This document shows positions 57,468 to 64,000 of a stretch of 64,000 nucleotides of DNA, piece by piece. The stretch's first letter is position 1. Every line of letters starts with the position of its first letter. The position numbers were made by a program, and so were the translations under genes. The notes below the pieces were generated by a model that ran no database searches, was not told the DNA's origin, and worked only from the letters and a program-made list of their open reading frames with translations. This DNA comes from Cupriavidus phytohabitans (GTDB lineage: Bacteria > Pseudomonadota > Gammaproteobacteria > Burkholderiales > Burkholderiaceae): NCBI RefSeq assembly GCF_000426345.1, contig NZ_AUFE01000006.1:1-64000 (forward strand), given 5' to 3'.

Positions 57468-58472
57468 ATGCCAACCCATCCCGCACACGCCGGCCGCCGC
57501 GCGCTGCTGCTCGCTGCGCTGACCGGGGCCGCGGCGCTCGCCGCCAGCTTCGTTGCCGCCGCCGCACCCGGCGACGGCTATCCGTCCCGTCCGATCCGCT
57601 TTGTCGTGCCCTACGCCGCCGGCGGCACCACCGACCTGGTGGCGCGCACGGTCGGCCAGCGCGTGGGCGAGAAGCTTGGGCAGCCGGTGGTCATCGAGAA
57701 CCGCCCCGGCGCCGGCGGCAATGTCGGCATGGACGCCGTGGCCAAGGCCGCGCCGGACGGCTACACCATCGGCTTCGGCGCGATCTCCACCAATGCGCTC
57801 AACCCGCATATCTACAAGCAGGTGCCGTTCGACCCGCGCAAGGACTTCACCGCGATCAGCCTGCTCGGCACGTCGACCATCGTGCTGGAGGTCAGCCCGG
57901 CGCTGCCGGTGAAGACCGTCAAGGAACTGGTGGCCTACGCCAGGGCCAATCCGGGGCTGACCTATGCGACCGCCGGCACCGGCACCTCGATGCACCTGGC
58001 CGGCGCGATGTTCGCGCAGATGACGCAGACCAGCCTGACGCACGCGCCGTACAAGGGCAGCAGCCCGGCCATCAACGACATGCTGGGCGGCCATATCAGC
58101 GTGATGTTCGACAACCTGCCGGCATCGCTGCCGCATATCCAGGCGGGCAAGCTGCGCGCACTGGCGGTGGCCGGCAAGCAGCGCGCGCCGTCGCTGCCCG
58201 ACGTGCCGACGCTGGCCGAAGCGGGGCTGCAAGGCTATGCGGTCGAGCCATGGTTCGGGGTCTATGGGCCGGCCAACCTGCCGCCACCGGTGGTGCAGAC
58301 GCTGAACAGCGCCTTCGTCGAGGCGCTGGCACGTGCCGATGTGCGCGAGAAGCTGGTGCAGGCGGGCTTCAATCCCAAGGGGTCCAGCGCGGCTGAACTG
58401 CAGGCGCTGACGCAGTCGGAATACGAGCGCTTCGGCAAGGTGGCGAAGACGGCAGCGATCACTGTGGAGTAG
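57468..58472 (+). CDS. Bug-family periplasmic solute-binding protein (TctC-like)
   Basis: A 334-residue Bug protein. The signal peptide ends around FVAAAAPGDG (residue 35). YPSRPIRFVVPYAAGGTTDLVARTVGQ near 38-64, IENRPGAGGNVGMDAVA near 77-93 and the Ala/Thr-rich YATAGTGTSMHLAGAMFA near 165-182 are family hallmarks; these contact the ligand, often a carboxylate. One Bordetella Bug protein (Bug27) is reported to bind nicotinate/nicotinamide, and this gene lies next to a nicotinate-type locus, so that ligand is a good guess. No TctA/TctB membrane partners are adjacent. The ATG has AGGAGA upstream. Confidence 0.9.
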   Translation: MPTHPAHAGRRALLLAALTGAAALAASFVAAAAPGDGYPSRPIRFVVPYAAGGTTDLVARTVGQRVGEKLGQPVVIENRPGAGGNVGMDAVAKAAPDGYTIGFGAISTNALNPHIYKQVPFDPRKDFTAISLLGTSTIVLEVSPALPVKTVKELVAYARANPGLTYATAGTGTSMHLAGAMFAQMTQTSLTHAPYKGSSPAINDMLGGHISVMFDNLPASLPHIQAGKLRALAVAGKQRAPSLPDVPTLAEAGLQGYAVEPWFGVYGPANLPPPVVQTLNSAFVEALARADVREKLVQAGFNPKGSSAAELQALTQSEYERFGKVAKTAAITVE

Positions 58473-58533
58473 TTAGCGGACCGGCAGGCAGCGGATATAC
58501 TCTGGGCACGCTCATCCAACGCATCACGTCGAC

Positions 58534-59022
58534 GTGCCCAACCCCTCCGCATCCTCCGCACCGTCAGCAGACCAGACCGCCCCCGACTACGATTTCACCG
58601 AACAGGTCGGCCACCTGCTGCGGCGCGCCTACCAGCGCCACGTGGCGATCTTCCAGCAGACCATCCCGGATTCGCAGCTCACCGCGGCGCAATTCGTGGT
58701 GCTGTGCGCGGTCAGGGACCGGCAGCCGTGCTCGCTGAACGAAGTGGTGCGCGCCACGGCGATCGACCAGGCGACGGTGCGCGGCATCATCGAGCGGCTG
58801 AAGGCGCGCAAGCTGGTTGCGGTGTCGCATGACCCGAACGACCGGCGCAAGGTGGTGGTGACGGTAACGCCCGGGGGGCTGGCGCTGATCGATGAGACGG
58901 TGCCGTTTGCGAAGCAGATCTCGGAGCAGACGTTTGGCGGTTTGAATCCCGCGGAGCGGGTGGCGGTGACGTACCTGCTGCGGAAGATGAGTGAGATCGA
59001 TGAGGGGAATGGGGGCGCGTGA
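58534..59022 (+). CDS. nicR: MarR-family regulator, NicR-like
   Basis: A 162-residue MarR regulator. The winged helix is SLNEVVRATAIDQATVRGIIERLKARKLVAVSHDPNDRRKVVVTVTPGG near 67-115. The N-terminal YDFTEQVGHLLRRAYQRH strongly recalls NicR/BpsR repressors of nicotinate genes, which respond to 6-hydroxynicotinate. The start is GTG with no clear ribosome site. It converges with the NicB-like gene. The nicR symbol rests on recalled similarity and the neighbours. Confidence 0.75.
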   Translation: MPNPSASSAPSADQTAPDYDFTEQVGHLLRRAYQRHVAIFQQTIPDSQLTAAQFVVLCAVRDRQPCSLNEVVRATAIDQATVRGIIERLKARKLVAVSHDPNDRRKVVVTVTPGGLALIDETVPFAKQISEQTFGGLNPAERVAVTYLLRKMSEIDEGNGGA

Positions 59023-59054
59023 GCGCCCTTTTTCCTTCGGATTCCCGATTGCTT

Positions 59055-59085
59055 GCTCCCCTCTCCCGCAAGCGGGAGAGGGAGC
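59055..59085. repeat. REP-like palindrome (copy 3)
   Basis: GCTCCCCTCTCCCGC then AA then GCGGGAGAGGGAGC, nearly identical to the head of copy 1. It sits between the convergent nicR-like and NicB-like genes and may also serve as a terminator. Confidence 0.7.
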
Positions 59086-59116
59086 CAGACAGCGGTATGC
59101 TGAGGCCCTCAGCCCC

Positions 59117-61387
59117 TCAGCCCCGCAACGCCGCCAGCACCGTCTCCGGCACGAACGGCGGCCGCCGCAGCCGCACACCGAGCGCATCGAACAACGCATT
59201 GGCGATCGCCGGTGCTCCCGGCAGCGATGCCGACTCCCCTGCCCCCATCGGCGGCTCTTCCTGCCGCGGCATCAGCACCACCTCGATCGGCGGGATTTCC
59301 GGGAACGTCAGCAACGGATAGCTGCCCCACTCGCGGCTGGCAACACCGTCGGCGTCGAAGCGCACCTGCTCCTTCAACACCCGGCTCAACGCCTGCACCA
59401 CGTTGCCGTGGATCTGGTGGCGCACGCCATCGGGGTTGACCATCATGCCGGTGTCCTGCGCGACCACCAGTTTCTCCACGACGATGCGGCCCGTTGCCGC
59501 TTCCACGGCCACATCGACCACCCATGCCGCCCATGCCGCGCCGAATCCGGGGAAGCGGCTGTGGATATAGCGCGCATAGGCAACACCGCGCCCGCGCAGC
59601 ATGCCGTCGTCGCCAGCTTTGCCGCGCGAACCCTGCGCGCCGCGCTGCCAGCCCGCCGCGTCGGCCACCGCGCGCAGCAGCTCGGCGGCGCGCGTGTCGG
59701 GCAGATGGCGCAGCCGGAAATCGATCGGATCGGCGCCGGCTTCGGCGGCCAGTTCATCGATCACGCATTCATGCGCGAACGAATTCGGCAGCGCCGACAC
59801 GCCCCGCAACCATGACGCCCGCACGATGGCCGGCGTGTCGTCGCAGCCGATGCGGCGCGCGCGGTAGGCATACGGCGGCACAGCGGTGCGGTCGCCCATC
59901 TCCAGCGTGCGCGGCGCGTTGGGAACGACGCCGGCGAGCACCAGCGCCAGTGTCGGCGCATCGTTGGACGGATAGCGGCTGGTGAAGTCATAGCCGAGCA
60001 GTTCGCCGTCGGTGCCCAGCGTTGCGCTGACATCCATCAGCTGGGCCGCGCCCTTGGGTTCCCACAGGTGTTCCTGCTCGCGGGACAGCTGCACGCGCAC
60101 CGGGCGGCCGACGGCACGCGACAGCAGCGCGGCATCGGCGCAGACATCGTCCGCGCAATTGCGGCCGTAGCAGCCGGCGGCTTCCATGCGCACGATCTCG
60201 ATGCTGTCCTCGCCCAGCCCGCACAGGCGTGCCAGGTCGATGCGCAATACGTGCGGGTTCTGCGTGCCCGACCATACCGTGAGCCCATCCTCATGCCAGT
60301 CAGCGACCGCGCACGACGGACCGATCGAACCATGCATCTGGTATGGCCAGACGTAATGGCGTTCCAGCGTCTTGCCGGCGCCGGCCGAAGGCATCTCGCC
60401 GTCGTTGAGCAGTTCGCGGCGCGTCGCCGGGTTGGCGCGCAGCGCGGGTTCAGGGTCGGCGAGCGGCGGCATCGGCGGCACGGGTTTCCAATGCACCCGC
60501 AGCTTGCGCGCGGCAAGCACCGCGTGCTCTTCGCGCTCGGCCACCACGCCGACAAAGTCGCCCTGTACCACCACATCGACCAGTCCCGGCACATCGCGCA
60601 CCGATTCGCGGTCGACCGCGAGCAGGCTGTTGCCGACAAAGTCGCCGCTGTCGCGGCCGGCGTAAGGCGGCCGCACCACGCGCCCATGCAGCATGCCGGG
60701 CACGCGCACGTCATGGACGAAAGTCAGCACGCCGCGCGCCTTGTCGGGGATATCGACGCGGCCCGCGGAGCGGCCGACGATGCGGTAGGACTCCACCGGT
60801 TTGATTGGCACGTCTTCGGCCAACGGCAGCGCCACATGCTCGCCTTGCACCAGCGTGCCATAGCCGATGGCGGCGTCGGCTCCCCGGACGCGGAACTCGC
60901 CGTCCTGCGCCTCGAGCTGATCGGGCGCCACGCCAAGCTGCTGTGCCGCACGCGCCAGTAGCCACGCGCGCGCCTGCGCCGCGGCACGGCGCAGCGGGAT
61001 GGCGGAGATCTGGATCGATGCGCTGGCGATCGTCGGACCCTGGTTGGGGGTCGCTTCGGTATGGCCCAGCACCATGCGCACCTGCGACAGCGGCACGTCG
61101 AGCTCTTCCGCCACGATCTGCGCCAGCGCCGTGCGAATGCCCGTGCCAAGGTCGACATGGCCATTGAAGGCGAGCACCTCGCCACTGTCGCGCACGGCGA
61201 TGAAAATATCCGGCAGCGCCGGTACGTAATCCGACGCCGCGCCGGGCTGGCCGGGCGCGGGACGCGCCGCCGCCTGCGGCGCGCGCGTGACCAGCAGCAC
61301 GCCGGCCGCCTGCAGCAGCGCCAGCCGCAGCGCGCGGGGCGTGGCGGGATCGGCCTGTGCCACGGGTTGCAGGGTCGTTGCCGTCAT
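59117..61387 (-). CDS. Molybdopterin-binding hydroxylase large subunit (NicB-like)
   Basis: A 756-residue xanthine dehydrogenase-family subunit of the isoquinoline/nicotinate type. AFNGHVDLGTGIRTALAQIVAEELDVPLSQVRMVLGHTE near 73-111 and TPNQGPTIASASIQ near 113-126 match NicB, the nicotinate hydroxylase subunit. The catalytic Glu is in PPMGAGESAS near 715-724. NicB in Pseudomonas putida also has cytochrome c domains; here they are missing, and no 2Fe-2S subunit gene adjoins. Substrate is inferred from neighbours nicF and nicX. ATG 61387 has GGAG upstream. It is divergent from a TetR gene. Confidence 0.87.
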   Translation of the reverse strand: MTATTLQPVAQADPATPRALRLALLQAAGVLLVTRAPQAAARPAPGQPGAASDYVPALPDIFIAVRDSGEVLAFNGHVDLGTGIRTALAQIVAEELDVPLSQVRMVLGHTEATPNQGPTIASASIQISAIPLRRAAAQARAWLLARAAQQLGVAPDQLEAQDGEFRVRGADAAIGYGTLVQGEHVALPLAEDVPIKPVESYRIVGRSAGRVDIPDKARGVLTFVHDVRVPGMLHGRVVRPPYAGRDSGDFVGNSLLAVDRESVRDVPGLVDVVVQGDFVGVVAEREEHAVLAARKLRVHWKPVPPMPPLADPEPALRANPATRRELLNDGEMPSAGAGKTLERHYVWPYQMHGSIGPSCAVADWHEDGLTVWSGTQNPHVLRIDLARLCGLGEDSIEIVRMEAAGCYGRNCADDVCADAALLSRAVGRPVRVQLSREQEHLWEPKGAAQLMDVSATLGTDGELLGYDFTSRYPSNDAPTLALVLAGVVPNAPRTLEMGDRTAVPPYAYRARRIGCDDTPAIVRASWLRGVSALPNSFAHECVIDELAAEAGADPIDFRLRHLPDTRAAELLRAVADAAGWQRGAQGSRGKAGDDGMLRGRGVAYARYIHSRFPGFGAAWAAWVVDVAVEAATGRIVVEKLVVAQDTGMMVNPDGVRHQIHGNVVQALSRVLKEQVRFDADGVASREWGSYPLLTFPEIPPIEVVLMPRQEEPPMGAGESASLPGAPAIANALFDALGVRLRRPPFVPETVLAALRG

Positions 61388-61405
61388 CGTCTTCCAATCT
61401 CCTTC

Positions 61406-61424
61406 AACGGGGCACCGTTATACT
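61406..61424. promoter_or_regulatory. Operator-like palindrome in the TetR/NicB-like intergenic region
   Basis: AACGG, GGCA, CCGTT (61406-61419) overlaps the -10-like TATACT (61419-61424) of the + strand gene. The other strand has a TATAAC. The gap is only 70 bases, so one bound protein could control both genes. Confidence 0.5.
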
Positions 61425-61457
61425 GCCAGCCAACAGAGTCAGAGCCACCCAACCATC

Positions 61458-62213
61458 ATGACGAACTCCACCGCGGCGAAACCGTCCGCCAAGCGAGCTG
61501 CCCCAGGCACCCGGGCCAGGCAGGCGCAGGACAGCCGCGAGCGCATCCTTAAAGCCGCGATCAAGGTCTTTGCCCAGCGCGGCTACGACGGTGGCCGCAT
61601 CGAGCGCATTTCCTCGCTGGCCAAGACCTATGACCGGATGATCTACTACTACTTCGGCAGCAAGGAGAAGCTGTTCGTCGAAGTGCTGGAGACCATCTAC
61701 CTGCAGCTCAACGAAGCCGAGCAGCAGCTCGAGCACGAACTTGACGCCGCCGACCCCGTGCGCGCGCTGTCGCAGCTGATCGACTTCATCTGGCAGTATT
61801 ACCTCGACCACCCCGAGTTCGTCGCGATCCTGTCCAGCGAGAACATGAGCCAGGGCAAGCACGCCAAGAAATCGGTCCGGCTCAAGGAAATCTCCAGCTA
61901 CGCGCTGTCGGTACTCGACGGGATCCTCACGCGCGGCAAGTCCGCCGGGCTGTTCCGTCCCGAGATCGGCGCGCGCGATGTCTACATGGTGATCGCTTCG
62001 CTCGGCTACTTCTACAACTCCAACCATCATACGCTCGGCGCCTTCCTGGGCGAGGCCATGATGAGCCCGCCTGCGCTGGCGCACTGGCGCGATGTGATCC
62101 AGCAGACAGTGCTGCGCACGGTGACGGTGCCCGGGGCCGTGCCGGAAGCCAGCGTGCCGCCGGCTGCGCCGGCGCGCAAGGCCGCACGAAACAGGCGGGC
62201 GGCTGCAGCCTGA
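61458..62213 (+). CDS. TetR-family regulator
   Basis: A 251-residue TetR protein. The helix-turn-helix is SRERILKAAIKVFAQRGYDGGRIERISSLAKTYDRMIYYYFGSKEKLFVEV near 25-75, after a 20-residue basic N-terminal tail. The C-terminal half is a ligand-binding helical domain (TetR_C), and the last 30 residues are Pro/Ala/Arg-rich. It is divergent from the NicB-like gene and convergent with nicF, so it likely regulates the NicB-like gene and itself. The effector is unknown. ATG 61458 is preferred over the upstream frame; no strong ribosome site. Confidence 0.9.
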   Translation: MTNSTAAKPSAKRAAPGTRARQAQDSRERILKAAIKVFAQRGYDGGRIERISSLAKTYDRMIYYYFGSKEKLFVEVLETIYLQLNEAEQQLEHELDAADPVRALSQLIDFIWQYYLDHPEFVAILSSENMSQGKHAKKSVRLKEISSYALSVLDGILTRGKSAGLFRPEIGARDVYMVIASLGYFYNSNHHTLGAFLGEAMMSPPALAHWRDVIQQTVLRTVTVPGAVPEASVPPAAPARKAARNRRAAAA

Positions 62214-62236
62214 GACGCAGCGCCGGGCCGCCAACC

Positions 62237-62878
62237 TCAAGCGGCGGCGCGGACGCCTTCACCCGCAACCTGCGCCAGCGCTGCGTCGCGCGTGAGCACG
62301 GTCGCGTACTTCTGCGCCATGTCGAACAGGTTGGCATCGTGCGGGCCGATGGCGCGGTCCCCCACGCAATCGGACACCACCAGCGGGCGGAAGCCCAGCG
62401 ACATCGCGTCGACCACGCTGGCGCGCACGCAGCCGCTGGTGACGCAGCCGGCCACCAGCAGCGTCTGCACGCCGCGCTGCGTCAGCCACGCCGCCAGCGA
62501 GGTGCCGAAGAACGCCGACGGCACCGTCTTGCGCACCACCAGCTCGCCCGGCGCGGGCGCCAGCTCGGGCACGATCTGGCTGTTGTGGCCATCTTCCTTC
62601 AGCGTCAGCATGCCGGGCACCTTCAGCGTGAAGATGTTGTGGTCGCTGTCGTCGTCGGCAAACACGATGCGGCTGTGCGCCACCGGCCAGCCCTGCTCGC
62701 GCGCGGCGCGCAGCAGCGGCTGCGTGTTGCGGATGGCCTCGGGGATATTGCCGCCGCCGAATACGGCCGGGTCGGCAAAGCCGTTGACGAAATCGATGAT
62801 CAGCAGGCCGTACGGCGCCTTGAGTTCCATCGACGCGCCGAAGCCCTGGCGCTGGTAGGTCTGCACTGCGTCATCCAT
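62237..62878 (-). CDS. nicF: Maleamate amidohydrolase NicF (isochorismatase fold)
   Basis: A 213-residue isochorismatase-fold hydrolase that should convert maleamate to maleate and ammonia, a late step of nicotinate breakdown. Catalytic residues are visible: Asp in LLIIDFVNGFADP near 27-40, Lys in ELVVRKTVPSAFFGT near 116-125 and Cys in VTSGCVRASVVDAM near 155. GDRAIGPHDANLFDM near 184 is typical of NicF. The start ATG 62878 overlaps nicX by eight bases, so translation is probably coupled. The frame to 62914 is ignored. Confidence 0.9.
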   Translation of the reverse strand: MDDAVQTYQRQGFGASMELKAPYGLLIIDFVNGFADPAVFGGGNIPEAIRNTQPLLRAAREQGWPVAHSRIVFADDDSDHNIFTLKVPGMLTLKEDGHNSQIVPELAPAPGELVVRKTVPSAFFGTSLAAWLTQRGVQTLLVAGCVTSGCVRASVVDAMSLGFRPLVVSDCVGDRAIGPHDANLFDMAQKYATVLTRDAALAQVAGEGVRAAA

Positions 62879-63950
62879 GGCGCGAATCCTTGTAGAGCGA
62901 TGCGGCGGGAGCATGGTGCCCGTCCATCACCTTGCCGCGCACCACCACCGGCTCGCCGTCGAGGCTGACCGTGCAGTGGCGCACCGGGATATCGATATGG
63001 CAGGCGGTGGTGCGGCTGCCGCCCGCTTCGTTGTTGGGGCCGAACGAGCACAGGAAATTGCCCTCGTAGGCGCGTGCGTCCATGCCGATGGTGGCCTCGC
63101 GGTCGTACATCGCCAGCGCCGACCAGCTTGCGCGCGGCTGCAGGCCCCAGCCGATATGCGACATCGCATACGCTTCGGGGTCGTTGAACGACGCCATGTA
63201 GTCGGCCAATAGCTCGGCATCGACACCGCCTTCGATGCGGCGCACGTAGCCCGCTTCGACCGTGATGCGGATCGGCGCCTGCAGATAGGATTTCATCGGC
63301 AGCAGGATGTCGCCGCGGTCGAGCACGATGGTGCCGTGGGTGCCGCCCTCGTCCGGCCAGGTCAGCACGAAGCCGCTCGGCCAGTGGTCCCAGCGGCCGG
63401 GCTCGTCGACAAAGCCGTACTCGCTGATCGCGGGGAATTCACCCAGGCGGCAACGCAGGTCCATGCCGGCATCGGACACGATATGCATCTCGCGCGCCTT
63501 GCCCAGCCGCTCGGTCGCGGCCTTGACGCGGGTGCGGTCGGCCTCGGTCGGTACCAGCCGTGCCAGCACCTCGGGCGGCTCCACCGCCAGCAGGATTCTG
63601 GTGCCGCCGGACAGGATCTCGTGCTGCTCGGGCGAGAACAGCAGCGTCATCAGGTCCAGCACCAGGTCGCTGGCCTTGAGCGCGGCAATCGCTGCCGGAT
63701 TGCCGGTCAGCGGCGTCGTGCCGAGATAGGCCAGCGCGTCGCGGCTGAGCGCCTTCTCGCCGTTGACCGGCGGCAGGTCGAGCCGGTTGACGATGGCGCC
63801 CATCGACTGCGCCGCCACCAGCGCCGTGCGCAGCGTCTGCGGATGCGTGGCCGCGCCGGTCAGCACGGTGACGGTCTGCCCCGGCTGCAGCTTCGACAGC
63901 GTCAGCACCTGCTTCCACGCCGCCGTCAGGTCGTAATCGCTTACGGGCAT
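62871..63950 (-). CDS. nicX: 2,5-dihydroxypyridine 5,6-dioxygenase NicX
   Basis: A 359-residue protein matching NicX, an iron-dependent ring-opening dioxygenase whose fold derives from M29 leucyl aminopeptidases. Recalled shared segments include TRILLAVEPPEVLARLVPTE near 127, EYGFVDEPGRWDHWPSGFVLTWP near 172-194 and SHIGWGLQPRASW near 258. ACHIDIPVRHC near 312 supplies His and Asp metal ligands. It opens 2,5-dihydroxypyridine to N-formylmaleamate. AAGGAGGG precedes the ATG. The stop overlaps the start of nicF; the upstream stop at 63964 is 14 bases away, so this is a tight operon. Confidence 0.92.
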   Translation of the reverse strand: MPVSDYDLTAAWKQVLTLSKLQPGQTVTVLTGAATHPQTLRTALVAAQSMGAIVNRLDLPPVNGEKALSRDALAYLGTTPLTGNPAAIAALKASDLVLDLMTLLFSPEQHEILSGGTRILLAVEPPEVLARLVPTEADRTRVKAATERLGKAREMHIVSDAGMDLRCRLGEFPAISEYGFVDEPGRWDHWPSGFVLTWPDEGGTHGTIVLDRGDILLPMKSYLQAPIRITVEAGYVRRIEGGVDAELLADYMASFNDPEAYAMSHIGWGLQPRASWSALAMYDREATIGMDARAYEGNFLCSFGPNNEAGGSRTTACHIDIPVRHCTVSLDGEPVVVRGKVMDGHHAPAASLYKDSRHG

Positions 63951-63963
63951 GTTCCCTCCTTGA

Positions 63964-64000
63964 TCAGGTCAGCGCAGCGCCGAGGAAGTCGCCGAAGGCG
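63964..64000 (-). CDS. C-terminal end of an upstream gene in the nic operon (partial)
   Basis: An open frame enters from the right edge and ends AFGDFLGAALT at TGA 63966-63964, 14 bases before nicX and in the same direction. Only 11 complete codons are seen, so the product cannot be named. NicD (N-formylmaleamate deformylase, alpha/beta hydrolase) is a natural candidate from pathway and position. Confidence 0.45.
   Translation of the reverse strand, partial: AFGDFLGAALT

Follow-up and report, generated by a model that had tools for sequence, protein, structure and literature searches.

We analyzed a 64,000-nucleotide stretch of the Cupriavidus phytohabitans genome (the window). Its positions 57468-64000 hold the left part of a nic cluster, the set of genes for the degradation of nicotinate, which is complete in this genome. 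The window comprises positions 1 to 64000 of contig C6, which is 219,589 bases long and is one of the 260 contigs of a draft genome of 7.58 Mb; C6 coordinates beyond 64000 equal the window numbering. The window edge cuts the locus, and the remaining pathway genes lie at C6 63964-72622. This type of cluster is already known. What appears to be new in our sequence comparisons is that NicB2, one of the two subunits of molybdenum type in its nicotinate hydroxylase, has lost the motifs of a working molybdenum site, and a literature search, at the level of search results, turned up no description of NicB2 as a pseudo-molybdenum subunit. Taken as a whole, the locus is very probably a complete nicotinate cluster with a split hydroxylase, an inactive molybdenum domain in NicB2, and control by BpsR and a TetR-family regulator.

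Nicotinate hydroxylase is described as tripartite (NicA, NicB1, and NicB2) in Bordetella and Burkholderia gladioli (PMC10269826), the enzyme of Alcaligenes faecalis JQ135 is described with the wording "two molybdenum-containing subunit" (PMC6403243), and a near-equal gene order is given for Delftia (PMC4572682); thus, the split enzyme was already known. In the cluster studied here, separate iron-sulfur (Fe-S), molybdenum, and cytochrome-bearing subunits are all present, namely, NicA (C6 67180-67677, + strand), NicB1 (59117-61387, - strand), and NicB2 (C6 67674-70619, + strand). NicB1, the catalytic molybdenum subunit of 756 residues, carries the MoCoBD_1 and MoCoBD_2 domains and no cytochrome domain. 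A first-pass annotation of the window had called it a NicB-like molybdenum subunit, which was right as to type and can now be narrowed to the NicB1 of a split hydroxylase. In NicB2 (981 residues), a molybdenum-subunit-like (Mo-like) part is followed by a hydrophobic helix and by three CxxCH motifs for c-type heme. The Mo-like part lacks anything corresponding to the first ~230 residues of NicB1, a segment that holds part of MoCoBD_2, and keeps a weak match to MoCoBD_1 (33 bits, above the family cut-off).

We counted four motifs (DLGTGxxT, GCYGR, WLRGVS, and GxGE) in 21 same-genus loci (20 plus the window's own) and in 80 further loci where the genes were found, after removal of near-duplicates. 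All four were present in every NicB1 (48/48; 34 from Cupriavidus and 14 from others) and in every fused NicB (9/9), and none was present in any NicB2 (45/45; 32 from Cupriavidus and 13 others). The counts leave aside a NicB1 fragment of 296 residues (locus L088), rows that duplicated the last 300 residues of another, and the fused NicB of Pseudomonas sp. BYT-1, which is cut by an insertion sequence and carries a GSGES motif. Two further NicB2-like proteins, from Halomonas sp. PA16-9 and genome G423, also had none of the four motifs, and the Halomonas strain holds a separate NicB1 that is 60% identical. The NicB2 proteins of two Caballeronia loci and one Paraburkholderia locus are just ~790 to 810 residues long, with the Mo-like part eroded further, and the Paraburkholderia protein is annotated merely as a c-type cytochrome.

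If NicB2 is dead as a molybdenum enzyme, it needs NicB1, and a separate NicB1 was therefore expected in genomes with a degenerate NicB2. We searched 399 genomes drawn evenly from the order with the NicB2 heme part (E up to 1e-110), which gave 17 matches in 16 genomes; 4 were lone cytochromes, and 13 had a molybdenum-type part ahead of the hemes. When these 13 were scored on three motifs, the fourth falling outside the stretches examined, 7 had none of the three and 6 had all three, with none intermediate. The 7 degenerate proteins include those of the window's own genome and of G015, both seen earlier, which leaves 11 new genomes. A search of these for NicB1 (E up to 1e-150) found a separate protein in all 5 genomes with a degenerate NicB2, 62 to 69% identical, on the same contig and divergent, and in none of the 6 with a fused NicB, where the single match falls inside the fused frame. 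A third arrangement was seen in one of the 5 genomes with a degenerate NicB2 (G533, contig C26:51706-55292), where a twin-arginine molybdenum subunit (54% identical to NicB1) adjoins a separate cytochrome (49% identical to the NicB2 heme part).

The fused NicB of Azospirillum shares 60% identity with NicB1 (743 residues compared) and 57% with the NicB2 heme part. In the tree, a branch with support 82/85 sets NicB1 apart on one side, and its neighbor is a fused NicB of the same bacterial family (88/99; Shimodaira-Hasegawa-like approximate likelihood ratio [SH-aLRT] 97 in a quick tree). We compared the window genome with eight relatives and obtained ratios of nonsynonymous to synonymous substitution rates (dN/dS) of 0.19 to 0.36 for the NicB2 Mo-like part (taken to include ~29 codons that precede its likely start and overlap nicA), 0.07 to 0.13 for NicB1, and 0.06 to 0.13 for the heme part, a pattern that indicates relaxed, not neutral, selection on the Mo-like part. 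The likeliest history would be complementary loss after a duplication. On balance, we favor the reading that a fused NicB was duplicated, that NicB1 became heme-less, and that NicB2 became a pseudo-molybdoenzyme serving as membrane anchor and adaptor, with nicB1 captured by a TetR regulator in Cupriavidus. Under such an arrangement, NicB2 would pass electrons from NicA/NicB1 to its three hemes, perhaps as the dead partner of a live molybdenum subunit in a heterodimer, and the Cupriavidus TetR repressor would give the catalytic subunit, and no other, a switch of its own.

The MarR-family gene of the locus (bpsR, 58534-59022, + strand) encodes a protein whose residues 13-157 match 6pcp and 6pco (E 5e-71) as its best PDB matches, entries that we take to be BpsR. 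Its Tyr19, His27, Arg30, and His36 align with chain positions 15, 23, 26, and 32 of these structures, and Tyr15, His23, Arg26, and His32 are the reported BpsR ligand residues for 6-hydroxynicotinate (PMC6837509). The protein is thus BpsR-like and likely responds to 6-hydroxynicotinate. It had been called NicR-like in the first-pass annotation, a name that we set aside in favor of BpsR; Pseudomonas putida NicR, as described in the same source, lacks this pocket (PMC6837509), which speaks against orthology to NicR. The region between nicE (C6 64818-65585, - strand) and the divergent nicC (C6 65922-67082, + strand) holds AGTGTACACACT twice, inverted and with at most one mismatch, in 21/21 same-genus loci; in our locus the copies lie at C6 65646-65657 and 65836-65847. 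They are 190 bases apart in 18 of the 21 loci, though the length of the region varies, and this constant spacing would suit DNA looping. These two sites are the only ones at up to one mismatch in the whole draft genome, compared with six for the reversed pattern, and there is none in the 64-kb window at up to two mismatches. The nicE-nicC region contains two copies of the core GTGTACAC in 22/22 named Cupriavidus loci and one copy or more in 9/13 other loci; among five further loci, those of Burkholderia cenocepacia and Paraburkholderia have a single copy just upstream of bpsR. A promoter-like site of nicE overlaps with one of the operator-like copies. The AGTGTACACACT pair is a probable BpsR operator, and the locus thereby suggests a sharp candidate operator for a regulator that, in Bordetella, is reported to connect growth and the formation of biofilms with the metabolism of nicotinic acid (PMC10269826, PMC6837509).

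The tetR gene (61458-62213, + strand; PF00440 and PF17938, scanned on a longer frame) lies between nicF and nicB1 and is divergent from nicB1 in 20/21 same-genus loci. We placed its start at the first ATG past a conserved block, the mechanical frame beginning at 61287. The block, G[TC]TATACT, lies in the divergent nicB1-tetR intergenic region (61388-61457), and its TATACT is kept in 20/20 Cupriavidus loci having tetR. It may act as a promoter, while a promoter scan gave no site in this region and inspection by eye gave no convincing operator for TetR there. Among 15 non-Cupriavidus loci (nicF plus a nicB1 match of at least 61%), none had a TetR match at this place among matches of at least 60 bits, and the Paraburkholderia and B. 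cenocepacia loci likewise had no TetR match at the nicF/nicB1 position. The TetR protein is 52% identical to one adjoining the fused nicB remnant on a plasmid of Pseudomonas sp. BYT-1 and ~50% identical to TetR proteins adjoining other molybdenum hydroxylase genes. Given its divergent position, TetR probably controls nicB1 (and itself), and it may be NicS-like; P. putida NicS is presumably a TetR protein. The idea that MarR and TetR regulators in one locus are unusual is not supported: P. putida has NicR and NicS (PMC10269826), and in Rhizobium acidisoli a MarR gene and a TetR gene occur together in a nic-like locus. The ~50% identical relatives come from nic-less Cupriavidus, where 6 of the 7 loci examined have them beside genes for other molybdenum hydroxylases. 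This TetR subfamily may generally regulate molybdenum hydroxylases.

Several observations weigh against our reading of the hydroxylase and its control. The roles given to the motifs (molybdenum cofactor contacts and catalytic Glu) are our assumption from the xanthine oxidase family, and alignment to 8gy3 and PaoC shows no more than that the Glu region is kept there. Further shrinkage of the Mo-like part in some Caballeronia also fits the slow decay of a useless domain. The Mo-like branches of NicB2 are too long for placement in a tree, and the NicB2 rows of the free heme/cytochrome tree do not form one clade and are not resolved from fused forms, so a single duplication is not proven; a single NicB2 clade in the heme tree is not rejected (approximately unbiased test, p 0.30). 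As for control, GTGTACAC is missing from 4/13 non-Cupriavidus nicE-nicC regions and from all five further regions, the 2 sites found by the promoter scan compare with a shuffle mean of 0.9 and, being within one to two standard deviations, do not exceed chance, and one of the 21 Cupriavidus nic loci has no TetR. We also considered that the Mo-like domain of NicB2 could be a decaying remnant without a role, with only the hemes mattering. Its raised dN/dS and its shortening in some Caballeronia and in Paraburkholderia would agree with such a fate, but the ratio is still well under 1, W133, R382-G383, A506-A507, N512, G519, and R521 are among the residues invariant in 28 sequences, and the C-terminal piece of the domain is found in every NicB2 compared (that of L107 judged by eye), so we regard a remnant without function as unlikely. 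Far less probable is that NicB2 works as a molybdenum subunit in addition to NicB1, which the wording used for Alcaligenes suggests (PMC6403243). The MoCoBD_1 match would favor this, but no motif is kept in any of the 45 NicB2 sequences (Alcaligenes not being among those compared), and the ~230 N-terminal residues of NicB1 with part of MoCoBD_2 have no counterpart.

The TetR gene could also be a passenger that regulates something else, which the relatives beside other hydroxylase genes in nic-less Cupriavidus and the nic-positive locus lacking the gene would allow. We doubt this, given that its place divergent from nicB1 is fixed in 20 of the 21 loci and that its relatives adjoin hydroxylase genes, fused nicB in Pseudomonas among them. 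It is extremely improbable that the cluster degrades another pyridine acid, e.g., picolinate, through a common lower pathway. The Bordetella picGEDF set is nearly identical to the nic-cluster set (PMC10142695), and other Cupriavidus hold second nicEDXF sets, but the present locus has a BpsR with a 6-hydroxynicotinate pocket, the NicA/NicB1/NicB2 subunits, and a NicC that is 70 to 79% identical to NicC of Burkholderiales loci with nicB1/nicB2, and we rejected a picolinate cluster on these grounds. Second nicE-D-X-F sets were seen in ten Cupriavidus loci; in 8 of the 10, the Fe-S subunit is just 36 to 40% similar to NicA, and these are therefore probably picolinate or other pyridine clusters.

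The Bug/TctC solute-binding gene (57468-58472, + strand; PF03401) was proposed in the first-pass annotation as encoding the nicotinate or nicotinamide receptor of the locus. Its position lends itself to such a guess: it shares the strand of bpsR and ends ~60 bases upstream of it, it adjoins bpsR in 7/21 nic loci, and its product is related to Bug27 (2qpq; 231 bits). However, a terephthalate-binding protein scores higher (249 bits), so that Bug27 is not the nearest solved relative, and neither an NAD-linked nor a nic-linked context was found. Among 36 genomes searched, 14 hold an orthologue (80 to 100%), nine of those without a close nicB1. The order bug-eamA-sdr-mgsA-bmp is kept in 6 of the 7 nic-less genomes fetched, in blocks that resemble that of the window but have no qor gene (nine stretches examined), and one genome (G007) has both a nic locus and a bug-eamA block. 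The orthologue is missing from 14 of the 21 nic loci; in 7 of these, bpsR directly adjoins eamA, and in the other 7 neither gene was seen in the examined stretch. On synteny, we therefore do not count Bug among the genes of the nic locus, though the orthologues of G001 (nic-less) and G020 (nic-positive, with Bug on another contig) do not stand beside the eamA block, which speaks in favor of the receptor proposal. As for Bug27 itself, it is reported to prefer quinolinate, and its inactivation left nicotinate uptake unaffected (PMC11452294). A receptor role for this locus seems very doubtful, and the gene most likely belongs to the neighboring eamA block; the case illustrates how an adjoining solute-binding gene can mislead a functional guess.

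All six genes of the first-pass annotation were found in place, and its central proposal, that NicX and NicF mark a locus for the nicotinate (maleamate) pathway, is borne out by PDB matches and by the iron ligands of NicX. Extension past 64000 added nicD, nicE, nicC, nicA, nicB2, and a gene for a major facilitator superfamily (MFS) transporter. NicX (62871-63950, - strand), a 2,5-dihydroxypyridine 5,6-dioxygenase, matches 7cn3, an entry of that name, over residues 1-350 (E 1e-121). Its H265, S302, H318, and D320 are invariant across 8 aligned Cupriavidus sequences and correspond to the reported iron ligands His265, Ser302, His318, and Asp320; the substrate-contacting L104, E177, and H189 are kept, but position 105 is Phe in the 8 proteins, where P. 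putida NicX makes contacts through Leu104-His105, Glu177, and His189 and His105 is reported to guide the substrate (PMC7910607). NicF (62237-62914, - strand; PF00857), a maleamate amidohydrolase, matches 3ot4/3uao at E 2e-99 with 335 bits compared to 122 for the next solved relative, and its nearest solved relative is thus this pair and not a nicotinamidase or isochorismatase lyase. We take 3uao, itself named "putative isochorismatase," to be Bordetella NicF. The nicF start may be Met13 at 62878, given that alignments to homologues outside the closest species often begin only at about residue 13. The same genome has a second NicX-like gene at contig C5:85057-86085, 41% identical. Every named locus whose NicX reaches at least 87% identity comes from Cupriavidus. 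Beyond the window edge, nicD lies at C6 63964-64806 (- strand), and the MFS transporter gene is to the right of nicB2 at C6 71174-72622 (+ strand). Family scans of the locus proteins fit the assigned names at fold level; among the matches listed, none of the twelve proteins scored above the cut-off of an NCBIfam model, and no model was listed for Bug and NicX.

Collectively, our findings suggest that nicotinate would enter through the MFS transporter and be 6-hydroxylated by NicA, NicB1, and NicB2, after which NicC, NicX, NicD, NicF, and NicE would lead to fumarate. The hydroxylase would be a split version of the two-part NicA-NicB enzyme in which NicB1 retains the working molybdenum site without cytochromes, and the Mo-like domain of NicB2 most likely serves only for docking the heme domain to NicA/NicB1. 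BpsR would repress nicE and nicC from the two AGTGTACACACT copies and be released by 6-hydroxynicotinate, and the TetR gene, seen in this position in Cupriavidus only, stands between nicB1 and nicEDXF and would probably control nicB1. In the bacteria whose sequences we examined, just one molybdenum subunit appears able to be catalytic, as opposed to the two molybdenum-containing subunits of PMC6403243. A single catalytic subunit would change how the hydroxylase should be purified, modeled, and expressed. The cluster would probably let Cupriavidus, a soil bacterium, use vitamin B3 as food.

Compared with known systems, the locus is close to the nic genes of Bordetella bronchiseptica (Brickman and Armstrong 2018, as cited in PMC10269826), with which it shares NicA/NicB1/NicB2, BpsR, and the pathway; Bordetella has a reported ABC transporter, whereas the Cupriavidus locus has an MFS transporter and adds a TetR gene between nicF and nicB1 (PMC10269826). 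The order given for Delftia acidovorans Cs1-4, marR-nicT-nicB2-nicA-nicC-nicE-nicD-nicX-nicF-nicB1, is likewise similar, but that description places no TetR between nicF and nicB1 and has MarR at the opposite end (PMC4572682). The membrane-bound aldehyde dehydrogenase 8gy3 offers a structural parallel: its large subunit matches NicB1 (4e-57), and its cytochrome subunit matches the NicB2 C terminus (8e-100), but the cytochrome chain, at 444 residues, has no Mo-like domain in the match, unlike NicB2. Chain 8gy3_C also has a twin arginine at a place where NicB1 has none, and the molybdenum and Fe-S centers of the split enzyme may therefore be cytoplasmic; c-type hemes are made in the periplasm. 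The NicB of P. putida KT2440 is presumably fused to cytochrome domains. KT2440 is described as using the same pathway, with nicAB under a second regulator in addition to the MarR protein, and with a two-component hydroxylase that has one NicB, unlike the split form found here (PMC10269826), and the NicR of P. putida is said to lack the 6-hydroxynicotinate residues that the Cupriavidus MarR protein has (PMC6837509).

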